12,023 nt of DNA. It comes from Ktedonobacteraceae bacterium. GTDB lineage: Bacteria; Chloroflexota; Ktedonobacteria; Ktedonobacterales; Ktedonobacteraceae. The position numbers were made by a program, and so were the translations under genes. The stretch is from assembly GCA_014896635.1 (NCBI GenBank), contig JADBKA010000138.1:1-12023 (forward strand). Reading direction: 5' to 3'. Positions 2,156 through 12,023 of the stretch are shown here, in pieces; positions within the stretch are counted from its first letter, which is position 1; each line of letters starts with the position of its first letter. Below the pieces are notes generated by a model, which was not told the DNA's origin, did not search any database, and was given only the letters and a program-made list of their open reading frames with translations.

Positions 2156-2797
2156 TCACTGCGTGAGTATGCTTGCTCCTTCAATCATCTGAAGGCTGAT
2201 GATCTCGTACGCCTCTTCCCAGGCTTCCTGTATCTCAGGCGTAAAACGAGAGCCGAGATAATCATGAAGTGTTTCGAGCAAAACTGCGCCCACCAGGGTA
2301 TAATGCTCTGTTTTAGCTCCATATTTTTTATGCTTGCTGCCAAGATGCTGAAGGACAGGAGTGAGATTCTCGCCACGCTCAACTCCCGCCACCACTGTCG
2401 CCAGAGTCGCCATCAACGCCCCTTGCTGGCGGCGCATATCTGTCCTGGCGAAGAGCGCCCGCGTTTCAGGGTATTCCTCAAAGAGTCGCTCATAGAAACT
2501 GCGGGCAAACGCTTCTTTATAAGGGGCGATCATCGCAAAGCTTTCTTTCAACAGTGTTTTGTTCATGACCAGCACTTTCCTTTCACTACGTAATCTAATG
2601 CAATCAACCTGCCGTAATTCAGAAATGACTGTTTCAACGAGAGGAAGGGGTTTGTGAAGTAACGTGGCTATACGTTGCGTATCACGCCGGCCATCCGCCA
2701 GCCAGAAGACCTGCCGATGAATGCGCTGCCACGCCTGCGTATCTACGCTGAGGTACGCATTGCGCTCCGGCACATGTACCTGCTTTTGTAGTTGCAT
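2156..2797 (-). CDS. Winged-helix-like segment fused to a bacterial single-domain globin
   Basis: The product is 213 residues. Residues about 80-213 form a haemoglobin of the Vitreoscilla/flavohaemoglobin type. Tyr102 in SFYERLF matches B10, Phe116 in RALFA matches CD1, Gln124 matches E7, and His156 in GSKHKKYG matches the haem-ligating F8 proximal His, followed by HYTLVG and a C-terminal AWEEAYEII helix. There is no FAD/NAD reductase domain, so it is not a complete flavohaemoglobin. Residues about 13-70 (HRQVFWLADGRRDTQRIATLL and after) resemble winged-helix segments that carry a DGRR turn. Oxygen, NO or redox sensing or NO detoxification is inferred. The frame opens at 2836, but the ATG at 2797 is preferred: AGGAGG (2814-2809) lies 11 bases from it and only 2 from the ATG at 2806. 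A promoter lies at 2847-2876. Confidence 0.85.
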   Translation of the reverse strand: MQLQKQVHVPERNAYLSVDTQAWQRIHRQVFWLADGRRDTQRIATLLHKPLPLVETVISELRQVDCIRLRSERKVLVMNKTLLKESFAMIAPYKEAFARSFYERLFEEYPETRALFARTDMRRQQGALMATLATVVAGVERGENLTPVLQHLGSKHKKYGAKTEHYTLVGAVLLETLHDYLGSRFTPEIQEAWEEAYEIISLQMIEGASILTQ

Positions 2798-2846
2798 AAG
2801 AAACATAACCTCCTCACACGTTTCACACATCATCAAGATAGAGTAT

Positions 2847-3097: not shown

Positions 3098-5551
3098 CTA
3101 TCGCTCGCCCGGCAGGTTGGTCTCGTTGCGGCCACTCTCGGCGGTGAAGGAGCGCAGGCGTTCGGCATAGCTGCGCAGGCGGTCTTCGACCAGGCGATGC
3201 ACTGTTCCTTCGGGGTACTGTCCATCGGAACCACGCCGTCCCGCCGGGCGTCCTGTGAGGAGTTCGATCCCCTCGTCGATGGAATGTACCGCCCAGACAT
3301 GAAACTGGCCGGCCCGCACGGCGTCGATCACCTCATCATCAAGCATCAGATTCGGCACATTTGCCGCCGGGATGATCACGCCCTGCTCGCCATTGAGGCC
3401 TTTTGCCTTGCAGACAGCGAAAAATCCCTCGATTTTGGTTGTGACACCGCCGACGGCCTGAATCTCACCATGCTGATTGACCGAGCCGGTAACGGCGATG
3501 CTCTGGCGCAGCGGCAGCCCGGAGAGCGCCGACAGCAGCGCATAGAGTTCGGTTGATGAGGCAGAATCGCCCTCAACCTCGTCGTAGGATTGCTCAAACG
3601 TGATGGTAGCACTGACTGCCAGCGGATACTGCTGGCCGTACTGGCCGGCCAGGTAGCCAGAGAGGATCAGGAAGCCTTTCGAGTGGATCGGACCCGACAG
3701 CTTGATTTCGCGCTCGATGCTCTGGACCGAACCGCGACCCAGGGAAACGCGGGCGCTGATACGCGAGGGTCTGCCAAAGGTATAACTGCCGAGGTCGATC
3801 ACTGCCACGCCGTTGACCTGGGCCTCTCTGGCGCCGGCGGTGTCGATCATGATGGTGCCGTTGTCGATCATCTCCTGGATCTGCTCTTCGACGAGGTTGG
3901 AGCGGAATTGCCTCCGCTCAATGGCCTGCTTCACGTCATCCGCCTGCACCAGCTCATGCCCGGCCTTGCCGGCCCAGTAATTCGCTTCACTCACCACGTC
4001 GGCAATATCACGCAGGCGGCTGGAAAGCTTGCGCTGATCCTCGCTCAGTCGCGCGCCATGTTCGATCACGCGGGCCATCGCCTCGCGGCTGAAGTGACGC
4101 AGATTCTCCTCACGCACGCGCCGCCCGATAAAAGCCACATAGTTGTTGACGTGTTCATCGCTCCAGTGCATATCCGGCGCGAAGTCGGCTTTGACTTTGA
4201 ACAGTTCCTGAAAGTCGGGATCGAGCCGGTAGAGCAGGTAGTAGACATCCGGCGGGCCGATCAGAATCACCTTGACGTCGAGAGGAATCGGCTCAGGCCG
4301 CAGACGTTCGGTGGGCAGGGCCGTGTATTGCTCTCCCAGGTTCTCGATAGCGACTTCGCCGCAGATGAGGGCGCGCTTGAGAGCCTCCCAGGCAAACGGG
4401 GCGCTCAGCACATCCAGGACATGTAAAATAAGAAAGCCACCGTTGGCCCGCTGGAGCGCCCCCGGCCTGACCTGGCGGAAATCGGTGATCATGGCGCCAA
4501 AGGTAGCACGATAGTCGATGCGGCCAATCAGGTTGTAGTAGGTCGGATTGCGCTCGACAACAACCGGCGCGCCTTTGAGACTGTTATTGTCAACGAAGAC
4601 GTTGACACCGTAGCGAGCCAGGTGCTCCTCACGCCGCATCGCTGCGAGATTACTGAGGACGGCAGCCTGCTGTCCTTCGCCTTCGCTCCCGCCGCGAAAA
4701 TCGTCGAGATGCTCCGGCAGGTCGTTTTTGATCTGATCCAGGTACGCCAGCACTTCTGGCTGGTCACTGTAGCTCTCATGAAGTTCGTCAAGATGCGGGC
4801 CAGCGGCAAAAAGCGCTACATCGCGGTCCAATTGTCGTACTCGTTCGGTTGCTTCCTTCTGTAAGAGGCGAATCTTGCGCAGGGTCTCGGCGGTCCGTTC
4901 CTGGACGGTATGGCTGCGCTGCTCAAGCTCCTGCCGGGTCTGAGCGGGCAGGCGCCGGAACTCTTCATCGGAGAGTGGTTGCCCCCGGCTGAGAGGCACA
5001 GTCACGATGCCCGCCGGGGTCATCTCCAGAGCGAAGCCCTGTTCACGTGCGAAAGTCTGGAGTTGATCGAAGAGGGCGTCTCGTTGTTGCGTCAGTTCGG
5101 AGAGAGCCTGGCGGCGGCGGCGCTCGTAGTCTTCGCTCTCGAAGGCGCGTGGAATGTCACGCTGAGCCGCTTCCAAAAAATTATCGAGGTCAGCCGCAAA
5201 CTTGCGTCCCCGGCCTGCCGGCAAGCGGATCGCATTGGGTCGATCAGGGTGGGCAAAGTTGTAAACATATACCCAGTCCGGCGGCGTGGGCCGTGTAGGA
5301 GCAAACTGTTGCAGGAAATCGTGGACGGTACGTTCACGCCCTGAGCCGGCGGAACCGGCCACAAAGAGGTTATAGCCAGGAGCGCCAATCTCCAGGCCAA
5401 AAGCCAGCGCATCAACCGCGCGTGGCTGACCAATAGTGCCTTCGAGCGGTGCAACGTCGGCGCTGGTCGAGGGCAGCCTGGCAGGATCAACGCGGCGGCG
5501 GAGTTGTTCCGGCGTGACCGCAAGCTGTGCGCTGAGAGTTTCTGTCACCAT
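3098..5551 (-). CDS. Lon-like ATP-dependent protease (AAA + S16 domain, YcbZ/LonB-like)
   Basis: The 817-residue protein belongs to the predicted ATP-dependent protease family that includes E. coli YcbZ. It has no membrane segment and is probably a cytoplasmic degradation machine. A nucleotide-binding loop lies at 66-75 (GSAGSGRERT), a charged helical insertion at about 120-300, and the rest of the AAA core around 340-480 (GGFLILHVLD, VKVILIGPPD). The C-terminal S16 peptidase spans about 575-770. Catalytic Ser663 is in EGDSASSTE, corresponding to Lon GPSAG, and Lys706 is in GGVTTKIEG, corresponding to the Lon GGLKEK Lys. Two oddities: the Walker A Lys is Arg72, and the expected Walker B Asp region reads ILHVLD. 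The ATG at 5551 has AAGGAG only 3 bases upstream; the adjacent GTG at 5548 is better spaced. It is a stand-alone unit with promoter 5682-5711 and terminator 2974-3019. Confidence 0.92.
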   Translation of the reverse strand: MVTETLSAQLAVTPEQLRRRVDPARLPSTSADVAPLEGTIGQPRAVDALAFGLEIGAPGYNLFVAGSAGSGRERTVHDFLQQFAPTRPTPPDWVYVYNFAHPDRPNAIRLPAGRGRKFAADLDNFLEAAQRDIPRAFESEDYERRRRQALSELTQQRDALFDQLQTFAREQGFALEMTPAGIVTVPLSRGQPLSDEEFRRLPAQTRQELEQRSHTVQERTAETLRKIRLLQKEATERVRQLDRDVALFAAGPHLDELHESYSDQPEVLAYLDQIKNDLPEHLDDFRGGSEGEGQQAAVLSNLAAMRREEHLARYGVNVFVDNNSLKGAPVVVERNPTYYNLIGRIDYRATFGAMITDFRQVRPGALQRANGGFLILHVLDVLSAPFAWEALKRALICGEVAIENLGEQYTALPTERLRPEPIPLDVKVILIGPPDVYYLLYRLDPDFQELFKVKADFAPDMHWSDEHVNNYVAFIGRRVREENLRHFSREAMARVIEHGARLSEDQRKLSSRLRDIADVVSEANYWAGKAGHELVQADDVKQAIERRQFRSNLVEEQIQEMIDNGTIMIDTAGAREAQVNGVAVIDLGSYTFGRPSRISARVSLGRGSVQSIEREIKLSGPIHSKGFLILSGYLAGQYGQQYPLAVSATITFEQSYDEVEGDSASSTELYALLSALSGLPLRQSIAVTGSVNQHGEIQAVGGVTTKIEGFFAVCKAKGLNGEQGVIIPAANVPNLMLDDEVIDAVRAGQFHVWAVHSIDEGIELLTGRPAGRRGSDGQYPEGTVHRLVEDRLRSYAERLRSFTAESGRNETNLPGER

Positions 5552-7668: not shown

Positions 7669-8928
7669 TTACTGGATGATGCCGTATTGCAGCTTCATGA
7701 GCAGGATGCGGGCCACCGACTGGTCAATGCGAGCCATCGTGAGACGCCCATCCTGTATCGCCAGCTTGAGCGCATCCACGACGGCAGCGACAGTAGCGGG
7801 GGAATAGGGTCCTTCGATCAGGTCATTGCCAGCAATGATGGCAAGCACTGCCGCTTCGCTCAACGTCCAGCGATCACTGATGCCCTTCATGTAGAGGCCG
7901 TCGGTGATGACAACACCATCATAGCCAAGCTGGCCGCGTAGGAGGCCATCAATGGCCTTCGGCGATAGCTCGGCAGGCAGTTCCGGGTCGATGGCAGGCA
8001 TGAGCACATCGGTTGACATAATCATCGCAGGTTTGTCGCGCTTGATCATCAGCTTGTAGGGGGCCAGGTCAATATTTTCTAGATCGGTCATGCTGCGCCT
8101 GACAATGGGCAGGCCATCGTGGGGATCAGAGGTGATGGAGCCGAGGCCGGGGAAGTGCTTGAGCGTGCCGGCGACACGGTTTTCTTGCAGGCCGGCCAGG
8201 AAGGCCGAGGCATAGGTAGCAACAGTCTGCGGATTGCGCCCGAACATGCGCGTCGCCAGGATGGCAGGGTCGGTCGCATGTACATCGACAACGGGGGCGA
8301 GGTCGGCGTTGATACCGAGTTCCCGCAGCCAGCGTGCAGTCTGTGTCCCCTGCTGGCGTACAACGGCAGGATCGCCGCTGGCCGCCATCTCCTGGGCTGA
8401 CGGCAGGTAGCCATGAAAGCGATAAAGACGGTTGACAAGGCCGCCTTCCTGGTCAGTGGCAATAAGCAGGGGAATACGGGCATCGGCCTGGGCCTGCCGC
8501 GAGAAGGCCATGACGGCAGCTTCCTGGTTGCAGGGCGGGTCAAAGTTGTGGTTGCTCTCCTGGTACATAAAGCCGCCGACGTACTGCTGGCTGATCATCG
8601 TGTACAGGCCGCTGGCCTGGTAGTTCGCGCCGGTGTATTCGACGATGATGAGCTGGCCGAGCTTCTGTTCGAGCGTCATGCCGCGCATGATCTGCTGAAC
8701 GCGGGCCAGGTAGGCGCGCAAGGCAGCCTCAGTCGTGAAGGTTGCGGCGTCGGATTTGGGTGAGATGGGGTGGCCACGCGCGTCCTGATCCAGTGTGACC
8801 TGTGTGGGCTGTGTGGGCTGCTGCGCCTGGTCTGCCAGGGGGGCGCAGGCAGCGGTGACAGTGACGACGATCAGGAAGAGAAAAGAAGGCGCGAATAGTC
8901 GCGCATACGCTCTTTTCTGTTGCTGCAT
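7669..8928 (-). CDS. GH3 beta-N-acetylhexosaminidase-like lipoprotein
   Basis: The 419-residue product starts with a lipoprotein signal: KR...R, a hydrophobic core at about 11-27, and TAAC with the lipidated Cys28. A Gln/Thr/Pro-rich linker follows, then a GH3 domain (about 65-415). ATDQEGG (157-163), LKHFPGLG (256-263) and VVITDGLYM with nucleophile Asp343 are all present. The loop reads SDPHDGLP, keeping the Asp268-x-His270 dyad of NagZ-type hexosaminidases. As in its neighbour, the Arg after DQEGG is missing. It probably removes N-acetylhexosamine from muropeptides or chitin-like oligomers outside the cell; the substrate is inferred. The frame is open to 9078 from a GTG, but the ATG at 8928 is preferred because it places the signal peptide at the N-terminus. 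No strong Shine-Dalgarno site precedes it. Confidence 0.87.
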   Translation of the reverse strand: MQQQKRAYARLFAPSFLFLIVVTVTAACAPLADQAQQPTQPTQVTLDQDARGHPISPKSDAATFTTEAALRAYLARVQQIMRGMTLEQKLGQLIIVEYTGANYQASGLYTMISQQYVGGFMYQESNHNFDPPCNQEAAVMAFSRQAQADARIPLLIATDQEGGLVNRLYRFHGYLPSAQEMAASGDPAVVRQQGTQTARWLRELGINADLAPVVDVHATDPAILATRMFGRNPQTVATYASAFLAGLQENRVAGTLKHFPGLGSITSDPHDGLPIVRRSMTDLENIDLAPYKLMIKRDKPAMIMSTDVLMPAIDPELPAELSPKAIDGLLRGQLGYDGVVITDGLYMKGISDRWTLSEAAVLAIIAGNDLIEGPYSPATVAAVVDALKLAIQDGRLTMARIDQSVARILLMKLQYGIIQ

Positions 8929-9122
8929 TTTCTGTGCCACGTCCGCACCTGTACTGTAGATAATTTTTATTTCTTTAAAAGCAAAAAAACCGTCACAGGG
9001 CAACGCTGCCGGGCGCCGCCTCTGTACTCCCCATAGGAGACAACGACGCAGCGCCAGGCGAGGTAACACAACGAACACGCCAACTACTGCATGAGGCTCT
9101 CATACTCCCTTGCGTTCAGATG

Positions 9123-9225: not shown

Positions 9226-9757
9226 CAGACAGCTATTAGAAGAAAAGAGCTTTCAGGCCCTGACGGTCCATGATATCACTACACGGGCATCGGTGAATCG
9301 TGGCACTTTTTATTTGCACTTCAGCGATAAATATGCTCTGCTGGATGACTACATTCGTGAGGAATTTCAACGGGTTCTCCCTGCACAGTTTCTAACATCT
9401 CCCTCTTTGAACAGGGAGAATACTCGTCTGCTCACCCTGACGACGATGGACTATCTTGCGCGTACATATGAGCATTGCAGGCTGGCTGACAAACCGATAG
9501 AATCGGTGCTGGAGATAGCCGTACAACAGGAAATTTATCAAGTGCTTGTCAAGATGCTCAAAAATGCTCAGGCTACTGAGACATCTTTTCCCGCTTCTGT
9601 AGAGATGATTGCAACGGTTATCAGTTGGGCCATCTTCGGGGCAGGAACCCAATGGCGACAGGGTGCAAGAGATGCAACTCTGGAAACAATGGCGCAACAG
9701 GTTATGGCCATGCTCGTCAATGGCCTCTCTCCAATCCTATCCCCCTTTTCTGCATAG
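9212..9757 (+). pseudogene. TetR-family regulator lacking its 5' end
   Basis: The frame from 9212 encodes the TetR DNA-binding region from its first helix onward: RQLLEEKSFQALTV, then HDITTRASVNRGTFYLHF, the recognition part, and DKYALLDDYI. A C-terminal ligand/dimer region of about 130 residues ends at TAG 9755-9757. An in-frame TGA (9209-9211) lies in the loop of hairpin 3, and no ATG occurs in frame between it and the helix-turn-helix. The first usable start, GTG 9293, would delete most of the helix-turn-helix. About 15-20 residues expected before RQLLEEKSF are absent. The simplest reading is a gene truncated by the hairpin element. A non-standard start (ATC 9224) or an assembly error are alternatives. 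The rest of the frame is intact, suggesting recent loss. Confidence 0.7.
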
Positions 9758-9783: not shown

Positions 9784-12023
9784 TCAGCGGCCGACGATGA
9801 CGATTTTGATGTCCTGGATGCCTTCAGGAACGTGATCAGTGCCAAAAGGCAGGCTGACACGTACAGTGGCTATGCCGGGCTGCGCGCTGAGATAAGCAAG
9901 AGCGGCGGCCGAGGTAGCTCCACGAATGGATTGTCGCCATTTGTCTTCCACTTGCGGCGAAAGCGTGTAAGTCCAGACTCCCTGTACCGGTACACTGACG
10001 TAGATAATCCCATCTTTACCAGCTTGCACGGTATGAGCAGCAGCAGTTATCTCGCCCTGCAACTGGTAGTTGCTGTCCAGCGTCTGAACAGCCTGAGCAC
10101 GCAGCAACTGTGAGGCGGTGCGCGTGGCAAGCGTGCGATCATAGGCGGAGACGCTCCCTTCAACCCTGACACTCACCTGCACACGTTCAGCCTGGTCGCC
10201 GGCCTGCCTATCGGCGGTGGTGGTGACTTTATAGACGGGCGAGCCGACGATGACTTCATCCTTCTGTAACATTTTTTGAAACTGTTGCGCAAGCTGCTGT
10301 TCCAGTTTCTGTACCTGAGATTTCTGCGCGCTCTCCAGATCGGCCTGGGTGACGATCTGCACAGTCTGCGGATCAACGCCGCCGCTGAAAGGCGCGACAT
10401 TCCTGACGGTCAACGTATTGTTGCAGCAAGGGCCATCGAGCGCATGTGCGGGAATATTGCCTGCCGTGCCACTCTGGACGGCAATGGCCTGGGCGCTGGC
10501 CCGGCCGCCGTCCCGGCTGGCCGGCACGTTGACGCTCTGCACGATCTGGATACGCACGCCGGCAGACGTGGTGAGAATCTGGCCGCTCGGCACTGTCACC
10601 GCCGTGTCGCCACCATTAAAAAAGACGACGCTGCCGCGAGCCTGGACACCTGCAATTTGCTTTGTGCCGCTGGCCTGGACAGTCGCGCTGCTGTTCGCAC
10701 TCTGTTGCAACAGGCGATCAGGAATCGTATGCGAGACGAGATTCGCCTCTTTGACCTGCGGTGAGGCGGTCAGCAGGTATTTGTCCTGCAAGGTGCGGCT
10801 CTGTAAAGTGATGTAGACGGTGGCGACGGGCGGAGTGCCAAAAACAGGAAAGCCCGATGGGAAGAAGCTGCATCCGAGCAGGCGCGGCATCAGCGCCAGC
10901 ACCAGCAAGAGCGCCGGCACGAGCATGGCAATGACCAGTAGCATATTCACACGCCGCAGGCGCGCAGTTCGCTTCCCGCCTTTGAGCACAGGGTCGTGTG
11001 GAGCCGGTTCTTCAGTGATACGCAGCGCGGCCTGCGGTGGCCGCGAGGGTCGGATCGCGTCGGTGATACGCAGTCCATGCCGGGTATCATCCAGCGTGCG
11101 CCCACGCAATGCAGCCGACTGGCGCTCAGAACCCGGCGCGTCAAGATCGGTTGCAGGCATTTCGAGCGCAGCAGGGATAGAGCGGCGCGCCGGAAGGCGC
11201 GGTGCAGTCGCAATCTGATCAGCCCTGACTTCTTCCAGCTCGCCCGATGGCTCACTGGCGTCTTCTATGTGCAGGTTATGTATAGCTGAACTATCAGCGT
11301 GAGAGATATCCTCCTCTTTTTTAAGTACATTGAAATCTTCAGAAGCACGGGCAACAGAGGGAGTATCAGGGAAAGCGGAGATATCGACGGAGCGAGGGGA
11401 CAGAGCCGGTCCTTCGAGCGCGGCGAAGAAGGCACGGCGCAGTTCGGCGACGTTGCGGTAGCGCGCTTCGGGCCGCTTCGCCATCGCGCGGCGCACAACG
11501 GCATCCATTTCGGGCGGTAGCGACGTATCGCGTTCGCTCGGTGCGGGAATGGGGGCGCTGAGATGCATCTGGATCACACGCACGTCGTCAGCATCATAAT
11601 AGGGTAGTTCGCCGGTCAGCATCTGGAAGAGCAGCACACCCAGGGCGTAGATATCGGTCAACGGCGTGACGATGCCGCGTGTCTGTTCAGGGGCCATGTA
11701 GTGAGGAGTGCCGGGTACCTGGTCGAGGGGGATTGGCCTGCCGGCCTGCGAGTTGTCACGCTGGCGTGTTGTGCGCACGAGGCCAAAGTCGGCGAGGTAG
11801 ACGTAGGGCGGCCCGCTGCGGCGCTCTTCCAGTAAGACGTTCGACGACTTGATGTCGCGGTGGATGAGGCCCTGCTCGTGAGCATACTCGACGGCATCAA
11901 GCAGTTGTTCATAAATAGCGGCAACCTCACCGAGGCCCGGTAGACTGCGGCGCAGGTAGCTGGTCAGCGTGCCACCTTCGATAAAAGGCATCACCAGATA
12001 GAGGATTCCGCGCTCATCGCCAA
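9784..12023 (-). CDS. Membrane Ser/Thr protein kinase with exported baseplate J/gp47-like region (5' end outside window)
   Basis: The gene enters from the right edge; the kinase N-lobe is not visible. The first residues seen, GDERGILYLVMPFIEGGTL, are the kinase hinge, so the frame continues upstream of the GTG at 11994. HRDIKSSN (catalytic loop, 11862-11839), DFG (11790-11782) and YMAPEQ follow, all with catalytic residues intact; the kinase ends near 11416. A linker of about 150 residues holds two LRIT repeats. A single membrane helix spans 10876-10944. The exported part includes a region (10390-10662) with GSVVFFNGGDTAVTVPSGQ and SGTAGNIPAHAL, which match the baseplate J/gp47 family pattern, then a Gln-rich helix (10255-10344) and a beta-rich C-terminus ending IKIVIVGR. 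Most bacterial receptor kinases carry PASTA, beta-propeller or TPR sensors instead. It converges on the TetR remnant with 26 bases between. Confidence 0.88.
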   Translation of the reverse strand, partial: GDERGILYLVMPFIEGGTLTSYLRRSLPGLGEVAAIYEQLLDAVEYAHEQGLIHRDIKSSNVLLEERRSGPPYVYLADFGLVRTTRQRDNSQAGRPIPLDQVPGTPHYMAPEQTRGIVTPLTDIYALGVLLFQMLTGELPYYDADDVRVIQMHLSAPIPAPSERDTSLPPEMDAVVRRAMAKRPEARYRNVAELRRAFFAALEGPALSPRSVDISAFPDTPSVARASEDFNVLKKEEDISHADSSAIHNLHIEDASEPSGELEEVRADQIATAPRLPARRSIPAALEMPATDLDAPGSERQSAALRGRTLDDTRHGLRITDAIRPSRPPQAALRITEEPAPHDPVLKGGKRTARLRRVNMLLVIAMLVPALLLVLALMPRLLGCSFFPSGFPVFGTPPVATVYITLQSRTLQDKYLLTASPQVKEANLVSHTIPDRLLQQSANSSATVQASGTKQIAGVQARGSVVFFNGGDTAVTVPSGQILTTSAGVRIQIVQSVNVPASRDGGRASAQAIAVQSGTAGNIPAHALDGPCCNNTLTVRNVAPFSGGVDPQTVQIVTQADLESAQKSQVQKLEQQLAQQFQKMLQKDEVIVGSPVYKVTTTADRQAGDQAERVQVSVRVEGSVSAYDRTLATRTASQLLRAQAVQTLDSNYQLQGEITAAAHTVQAGKDGIIYVSVPVQGVWTYTLSPQVEDKWRQSIRGATSAAALAYLSAQPGIATVRVSLPFGTDHVPEGIQDIKIVIVGR

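Follow-up and report, generated by a model that had tools for sequence, protein, structure and literature searches.

A conserved receptor-type Ser/Thr kinase of Ktedonobacteria with a baseplate-J type barrel in its predicted exported region

The kinase gene at the end of the window

The stretch of DNA analyzed here (the window, 12,023 nucleotides of a contig from a Ktedonobacteraceae bacterium) ends in a gene that consists of a single frame on the minus strand (9784–12021, 745 residues) and that is still open at the window end. As proposed in the initial annotation of this DNA, the one frame encodes the C-lobe of a Ser/Thr kinase (with the motifs HRDIKSSN, DFG, and APE), one membrane helix, and an exported part of about 360 residues (about 365 by our count), an arrangement that we could confirm from the frame itself, from a match to PF00069, and from hydropathy. 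The kinase part (residues 1–204; 11410–12021, minus strand) matches PF00069 over residues 7–189 (E = 1e-30), and PknB, PknE, and StkP are among its best sequence matches in the PDB. The kinase N-lobe is missing from the window protein because the window ends there; it is present in the full-length relatives P0002 and P0003.

The kinase part is followed by a charged, proline-rich, and poorly conserved cytoplasmic linker (10945–11409, minus strand, as delimited from the reading frame), which contains the motif RITEEP (11005–11022, minus strand), a possible phosphorylation or docking site. The pattern RxTE[ED] is found in the linkers of 41 of 81 full-length relatives, which are not independent of one another, compared to a mean of 0.44 proteins over 100 shuffles. 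No motif of the RITEEP type occurs in 12 A-type and 11 B-type partner proteins (described below). Residues 360–378 (10888–10944, minus strand; mean Kyte-Doolittle hydropathy 3.0) are the sole strongly hydrophobic stretch of the window protein and make up the predicted membrane helix; a 19-residue segment of strong hydrophobicity (mean at least 2.2) is present in 89 of 89 homologues. The basic sequence RTARLRR just before this stretch suggests that the C-terminus lies outside the cell.

For the 365-residue region that would thus be exported (9787–10881, minus strand), AlphaFold2 returned a model with a mean pLDDT of 91.5 and a pTM of 0.65, a value at which the arrangement of the domains is unsure. 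The monomer prediction that the initial annotation had suggested bears out a J-type beta-barrel fold, placed at model residues 73–174 (10360–10665, minus strand) by profile and structure comparison. Within the barrel lies an adjacent pair of cysteines (10423–10428, minus strand) that could form a vicinal disulphide; CC is found in the last 320 residues of 83 of the 89 homologues, and exactly two cysteines are found in this segment in 84 of the 89. C-terminal to the barrel are predicted alpha-beta domains (9787–10359, minus strand). The first of these and the strand that precedes the barrel together resemble SIMPL, dodecin, and FtsA; in structure comparison, the exported residues outside the barrel give weak matches to small alpha-beta domains of these types. 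With catalytic motifs, one membrane helix, and an exported domain, the window protein has, as read from its sequence, the features of a Hanks-type receptor Ser/Thr kinase, and the CC pair and the linker motif offer handles for experiments.

Several other genes share the window. Near the kinase gene, two genes of glycoside hydrolase family 3 (PF00933; 6304–7647, plus strand, and 7669–9078, minus strand) converge; by our reading they are NagZ-like, and this cluster is present in the window alone among 33 stretches compared. Convergent with the kinase gene is a frame (9293–9757, plus strand) with a TetR-like C-terminal region (TetR_C_8, 21.0 bits, cut-off 26.1), which begins inside an apparent recognition helix, so that the start of the DNA-binding part lies outside the frame. 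Farther away are genes for a LonC-type protease with AAA_32 and LonB lid domains (3098–5551, minus strand) and for a protein with a globin domain (PF00042, residues 113–215) after an N-terminal part of about 110 residues (2156–2836, minus strand).

The exported region and its relation to baseplate J

The exported region had initially been read as a baseplate J domain. The motifs on which that reading relied (NGGD, VPSG, and GTAGN) are present in the exported sequence, and a J barrel is supported by profile, profile-profile, and structure comparison; J, however, covers only about 100 of the 365 residues. In the suggested check with PF04865, the profile scored above its cut-off of 21.1 bits on a 163-residue core (27.4 bits) and on the 103-residue barrel (27.5 bits) but was not reported on the whole 745 residues or on the whole 365-residue exported part, although the E limits were relaxed to 1 and 10. 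The precomputed annotation of P0001, the protein from the window itself, does list PF04865.20, and PHROG 6 (baseplate wedge) matches residues 451–553 (E = 3e-8). In structure comparison, baseplate wedge proteins score highest against the barrel. VIA-align paired 146–157 residues with wedge proteins, through to the C-terminus, at an rmsd of 33–48 Å, indicating that the paired residues are not one rigid unit, and on re-examination of the Foldseek matches no solved structure stood out across the whole exported region.

The kinship to phage and injection-system proteins that the initial annotation had drawn from the J motifs applies to the shared barrel; the closest relatives of the exported region are membrane proteins of Chloroflexota, often encoded beside ruvX and mltG. 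A profile search of the PDB returned only a baseplate component of Staphylococcus aureus phage phi812 (E = 0.57), and a tblastn search of 50,697 phage records with the exported part returned a single weak match (E = 0.9); as this match is weak and no relative was confirmed among viral contigs, we rejected a phage origin by close homology. By contrast, alignment of the exported region with the Chloroflexota J protein by hhalign gave a probability of 99.8 (E = 6e-28, 336 columns), and the putative exported region is thus, on profile comparison, homologous along its length to this membrane protein. The profile of the related Chloroflexota J proteins itself matches the phage profile (probability 75, E = 2.6e-5), more weakly than that of the window protein. 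Chloroflexota proteins of this kind (P0148 and relatives, about 500 residues), to which some sources give the name 'baseplate J/gp47 family protein', share the exported region and one membrane helix with the window protein and have a small N-terminal domain in place of the kinase.

Conservation and genomic setting of J-domain genes

The pair formed by a kinase and a J-type exported domain is real and conserved. At least 89 homologues of the exported region were drawn from the 7999 scored candidates sharing most words; 81 of the 89 are 700 residues or longer, the other 8 being shorter, and all 81 contain HRD, DFG, and APE patterns. All five kinase motif patterns are found in 79 of these 81, the exceptions being the window's own protein, which is cut, and P0074, which has no VAIK pattern. 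The survey of the domain pair that the initial annotation had called for was carried out across 301 Chloroflexota genomes, with at most five candidates scored per genome: 181 genomes have a match to the exported profile and 120 have none, and in 19 of the 19 genomes with a match above 400 bits the kinase and the exported part lie in one frame, for which reason we rejected an assembly error as the source of the fusion. The kinase sequence is partial in 3 of the 19 (L008, L021, and L031), where the frame reaches the end of the stretch or starts less than 40 bases from it. Over the 19 genomes, which include Dictyobacter kobayashii, the kinase has a median identity of 78% to P0003 and the exported part a median identity of 43% to that of the window; the fusion is also present in D. 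aurantiacus. Genome G089 contains a distant kinase-J fusion (L035 1489–4110; kinase 36% and exported part 28% identical), perhaps a further independent fusion judging from its sequence.

We refer to the genomes above 400 bits, which we take, judging from the match, to be Ktedonobacteria, together with those behind loci L001–L005 (Ktedonobacteraceae, Ktedonobacter, two Dictyobacter, and Ktedonobacterales), as kinase-J genomes. Besides a J gene linked to alaS, the eight of them that were examined carry tandem J genes, namely two kinase-J genes and one kinase-free gene in most of the loci read. With C denoting the orthologue of the window gene, A the other kinase (32–37% identical to C), and B the kinase-free gene, the order among 12 loci is A-B-C in six, B-A2-C in three, and B-C, over the stretch read, in two, the twelfth being a J fragment followed by A2 and C and cut by a contig end. 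Another J gene on the same strand precedes C in 12 of 12 kinase-J loci, with gaps of about 10–240 nucleotides or overlaps in the 11 listed. In these 12 loci the kinase operon lies away from mltG, and its flanks vary among genomes. In D. kobayashii, one of the six with A-B-C, both A and B (L003 105–2321 and 3096–5677, equivalent to A and B of L044) are broken across frames, which is not so in D. aurantiacus and reflects either sequencing error or decay. Downstream of the D. kobayashii operon (L003 8543–10231), one gene joins a SAM methyltransferase domain (PF10017) to a TIR domain.

A phylogeny of 55 J domains places the 13 C domains in one clade (100/98); two of its rows, labeled 'anc' (L052_5 and L048_16), come from kinase-J genomes, and L048_16, cut by a stretch end, groups with A2. 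The A, A2, and B domains are mixed with one another, and branches with good support require at least two changes for A, three for A2, and three for B; very long branches in five rows and a deviating composition in 16 make the deep forks unsure. In G005 the A and B domains are nearest each other (100/100), whereas in both Dictyobacter the A domains cluster together (87/99), as do the B domains (100/99). The intermingling implies that the kinases acquired the J sensor more than once or that neighbors swapped J domains, and on the sequences compared the apparent history is one in which the kinase-J fusion arose more than once or neighboring genes exchanged J domains in some lineages.

Most of the other matching genomes listed have one J match each, mostly in frames of about 470–600 residues (at most five candidates scored per genome). 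We compared 20 loci chosen, non-randomly, from better-scoring matches on long contigs (two pairs, L056/L057 and L064/L065, are near-identical) in genomes that, judging from the match, we take to lie outside Ktedonobacteria. None of the 18 J frames from these loci matched either kinase query. In 15 of the 20 loci the J gene is preceded by alaS on its own strand, in 14 it is followed by ruvX or mltG, and in 16 it has at least one of the three beside it, the remaining four having none; neighbors were grouped as BLAST clusters, with one representative of each checked by Pfam (PF01411, PF03652, and PF02618). A J gene also follows alaS within about 2.1 kb in eight of eight kinase-J genomes, although in G282 the J match beside alaS is weak (E = 7e-4), and no such J frame matches the C kinase query. 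BLAST found the N-terminal domain of the alaS-linked gene in six of these eight. The order alaS-J-ruvX-mltG is found in seven of the eight; in G121, ruvX and mltG are about 21 kb away. The N-terminal domain of B aligns with that of the Chloroflexota J protein (hhalign probability 96.3, E = 1.5e-9, 88 columns, 8 of 10 rows used), compared to a probability of at most 2.5 for ruvX and mltG as controls. The recurrent place of the J gene beside ruvX and mltG points to a role in envelope growth.

A candidate envelope-sensing kinase and its known counterparts

We tentatively favor the view that the window protein is a single-pass, PknB-like receptor Ser/Thr kinase that reads the state of the cell envelope. 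Its predicted exported sensor, akin along its length to an envelope protein of Chloroflexota, combines a J-type barrel with small alpha-beta domains around it. Through their exported domains, the products of the tandem genes would bind each other and an envelope ligand, perhaps peptidoglycan or a precursor, and ligand binding by the J domains would bring the kinase domains together for mutual phosphorylation. The J kinases would then pass information on the envelope to the machinery of cell-wall synthesis, plausibly by acting on MltG or its partners. The J domain might assemble into a ring or sense envelope contacts, as the initial annotation had imagined.

Several observations count against an envelope-sensing role: the kinase operon does not adjoin mltG in the 12 loci read, 120 of the 301 genomes lack a match to the exported profile, and 4 of the 20 chosen loci lack alaS, ruvX, and mltG alike. 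Speaking against matched A and B partners, within-genome pairing of J domains is well supported in one genome only (G005). Because A/B pairing is well supported there only, we have lowered the weight of envelope sensing and raised that of a receptor kinase that responds to a different extracellular cue, such as a kin or contact signal, or redox through the CC pair, and that does not read wall state. This last possibility we consider somewhat doubtful but worth serious attention: the exported part is more divergent than the kinase over the 19 genomes, the CC pair is retained in most homologues, the outer domains of A and B match each other weakly within genomes, and such cues exist in the lifestyle of Ktedonobacter racemifer, which is described as spore-forming and, in a cited title, as filamentous (PMC3971608). 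The presence of a related gene beside ruvX and mltG nevertheless speaks for a housekeeping role in the envelope. The weak SIMPL- and FtsA-like matches and the lack of a kinase in related Chloroflexota J proteins would also suit a purely structural role, in which the exported part anchors the kinase at sites of growth or division without sensing. The combination of two kinases and a kinase-free partner, all with related outer domains, is more suggestive of a signaling set, making an anchor improbable in our estimation.

Very improbable, we believe, is that the exported J part docks the baseplate of a contractile injection system or prophage at the membrane, with the kinase reporting or regulating firing. 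Baseplate wedge proteins head the structural matches of the barrel, and a search for tail and injection-system genes with the sheath family (PF04984) alone found a sheath gene in four of eight kinase-J genomes, yet the other four, including both Dictyobacter, retain the operon with no sheath match, which weakens the docking idea. Where a sheath gene does occur, a separate and stronger PF04865 match lies 5–9 kb from it, and the sheath gene is on a different contig from the operon in three genomes and 3.6 Mb away in G153, so that in none of the eight genomes did this search place the operon in a tail or injection-system gene cluster. The exported J region is probably not a phage or injection-system part. 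We also rejected a role in anti-phage defence, since the PADLOC matches of P0003 begin in its kinase domain and many are to kinase models (25 of 33 families listed); the kinase-free partner matches no PADLOC family.

The kinase-J protein suggests that bacterial receptor kinases can have an outer sensor of a new kind and provides a testable lead on how Chloroflexota may couple the envelope to Ser/Thr phosphorylation. For annotation, 'baseplate J' in Chloroflexota can mark an envelope protein beside ruvX and mltG and not a phage remnant. Our search of the open-access literature found no paper on baseplate J (PF04865) paired with a kinase domain and nothing joining J terms with mltG or ruvX; the paper on baseplate J and Chloroflexi concerns phage-tail-derived elements, and those on baseplate J and protein kinases concern, going by their listing, a virus gene network and Clostridium butyricum.

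Among known systems, the baseplate J proteins of phages and contractile injection systems (Mu gp47, T4 gp6; PF04865) have a like beta barrel of about 90–100 residues (2.1–2.8 Å in one-piece alignments), to which the hhalign profile alignment is confined; unlike them, the window protein is a membrane-anchored kinase, encoded outside a tail gene cluster going by the sheath search. A barrel is also found in GlxA, the galactose-oxidase homologue of Streptomyces lividans (5lqi, 5lxz, and 4unm; PF21110), but GlxA is an enzyme without a kinase, and PF21110 gave no sequence match above its cut-off (15.9 of 27 bits for the related L036 protein). Closer in layout are the PASTA kinases (PknB, StkP, PrkC, and IreK), which share a PknB-type cytoplasmic kinase, one membrane helix, and an exported C-terminal part with the window kinase and differ in the outer part. 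NF033483 is the best NCBIfam match, below its cut-off (176 of 450 bits for the window protein and 259 of 450 for P0002), and a PASTA (PF03793) search with E values as high as 1 gave no match to the window protein. PASTA domains are found in 20 of 20 kinase-J genomes and in 16 of 20 other Chloroflexota, in a search whose control gave a match in 9 of 14 genomes, two of them archaea. As PASTA domains remain in all 20 kinase-J genomes, we rejected J as a replacement for the PASTA sensor, and J looks like an addition and not a substitute.

A further parallel is the IreB/ReoM gene (PF06135) of Firmicutes; IreB and ReoM are one family of small proteins, distinct from J. In Bacillus subtilis, alaS presumably follows the family's gene, yrzL. 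PF06135 has no match in 28 Chloroflexota genomes, with control matches in B. subtilis and Lactococcus. Like the Chloroflexota J gene, yrzL (BSU27400) adjoins the ruvX and mltG homologues yrrK (BSU27390, yqgF) and yrrL (BSU27370, yceG), going by the locus tags in PMC3814617; PMC7286690 equates yrzL with reoM and describes control of peptidoglycan synthesis through phosphorylation of ReoM by the PASTA kinase PrkA, and in Enterococcus faecalis MltG is a phosphorylation target of the PASTA kinase IreK when the wall is stressed (PMC12369325). By analogy, J may fill the same functional slot beside ruvX and mltG as IreB/ReoM. On a broader and unlikely joint reading, the J-barrel protein would be the envelope arm of a Chloroflexota Ser/Thr-kinase pathway, seated in the ruvX-mltG slot, with the link made physical in Ktedonobacteria, where two kinases and a kinase-free J partner would form a three-part receptor tuning MltG and glycan length; if true, a barrel familiar chiefly from virus tails would serve bacteria as a wall-sensing module, holding the place that IreB/ReoM holds in Firmicutes.
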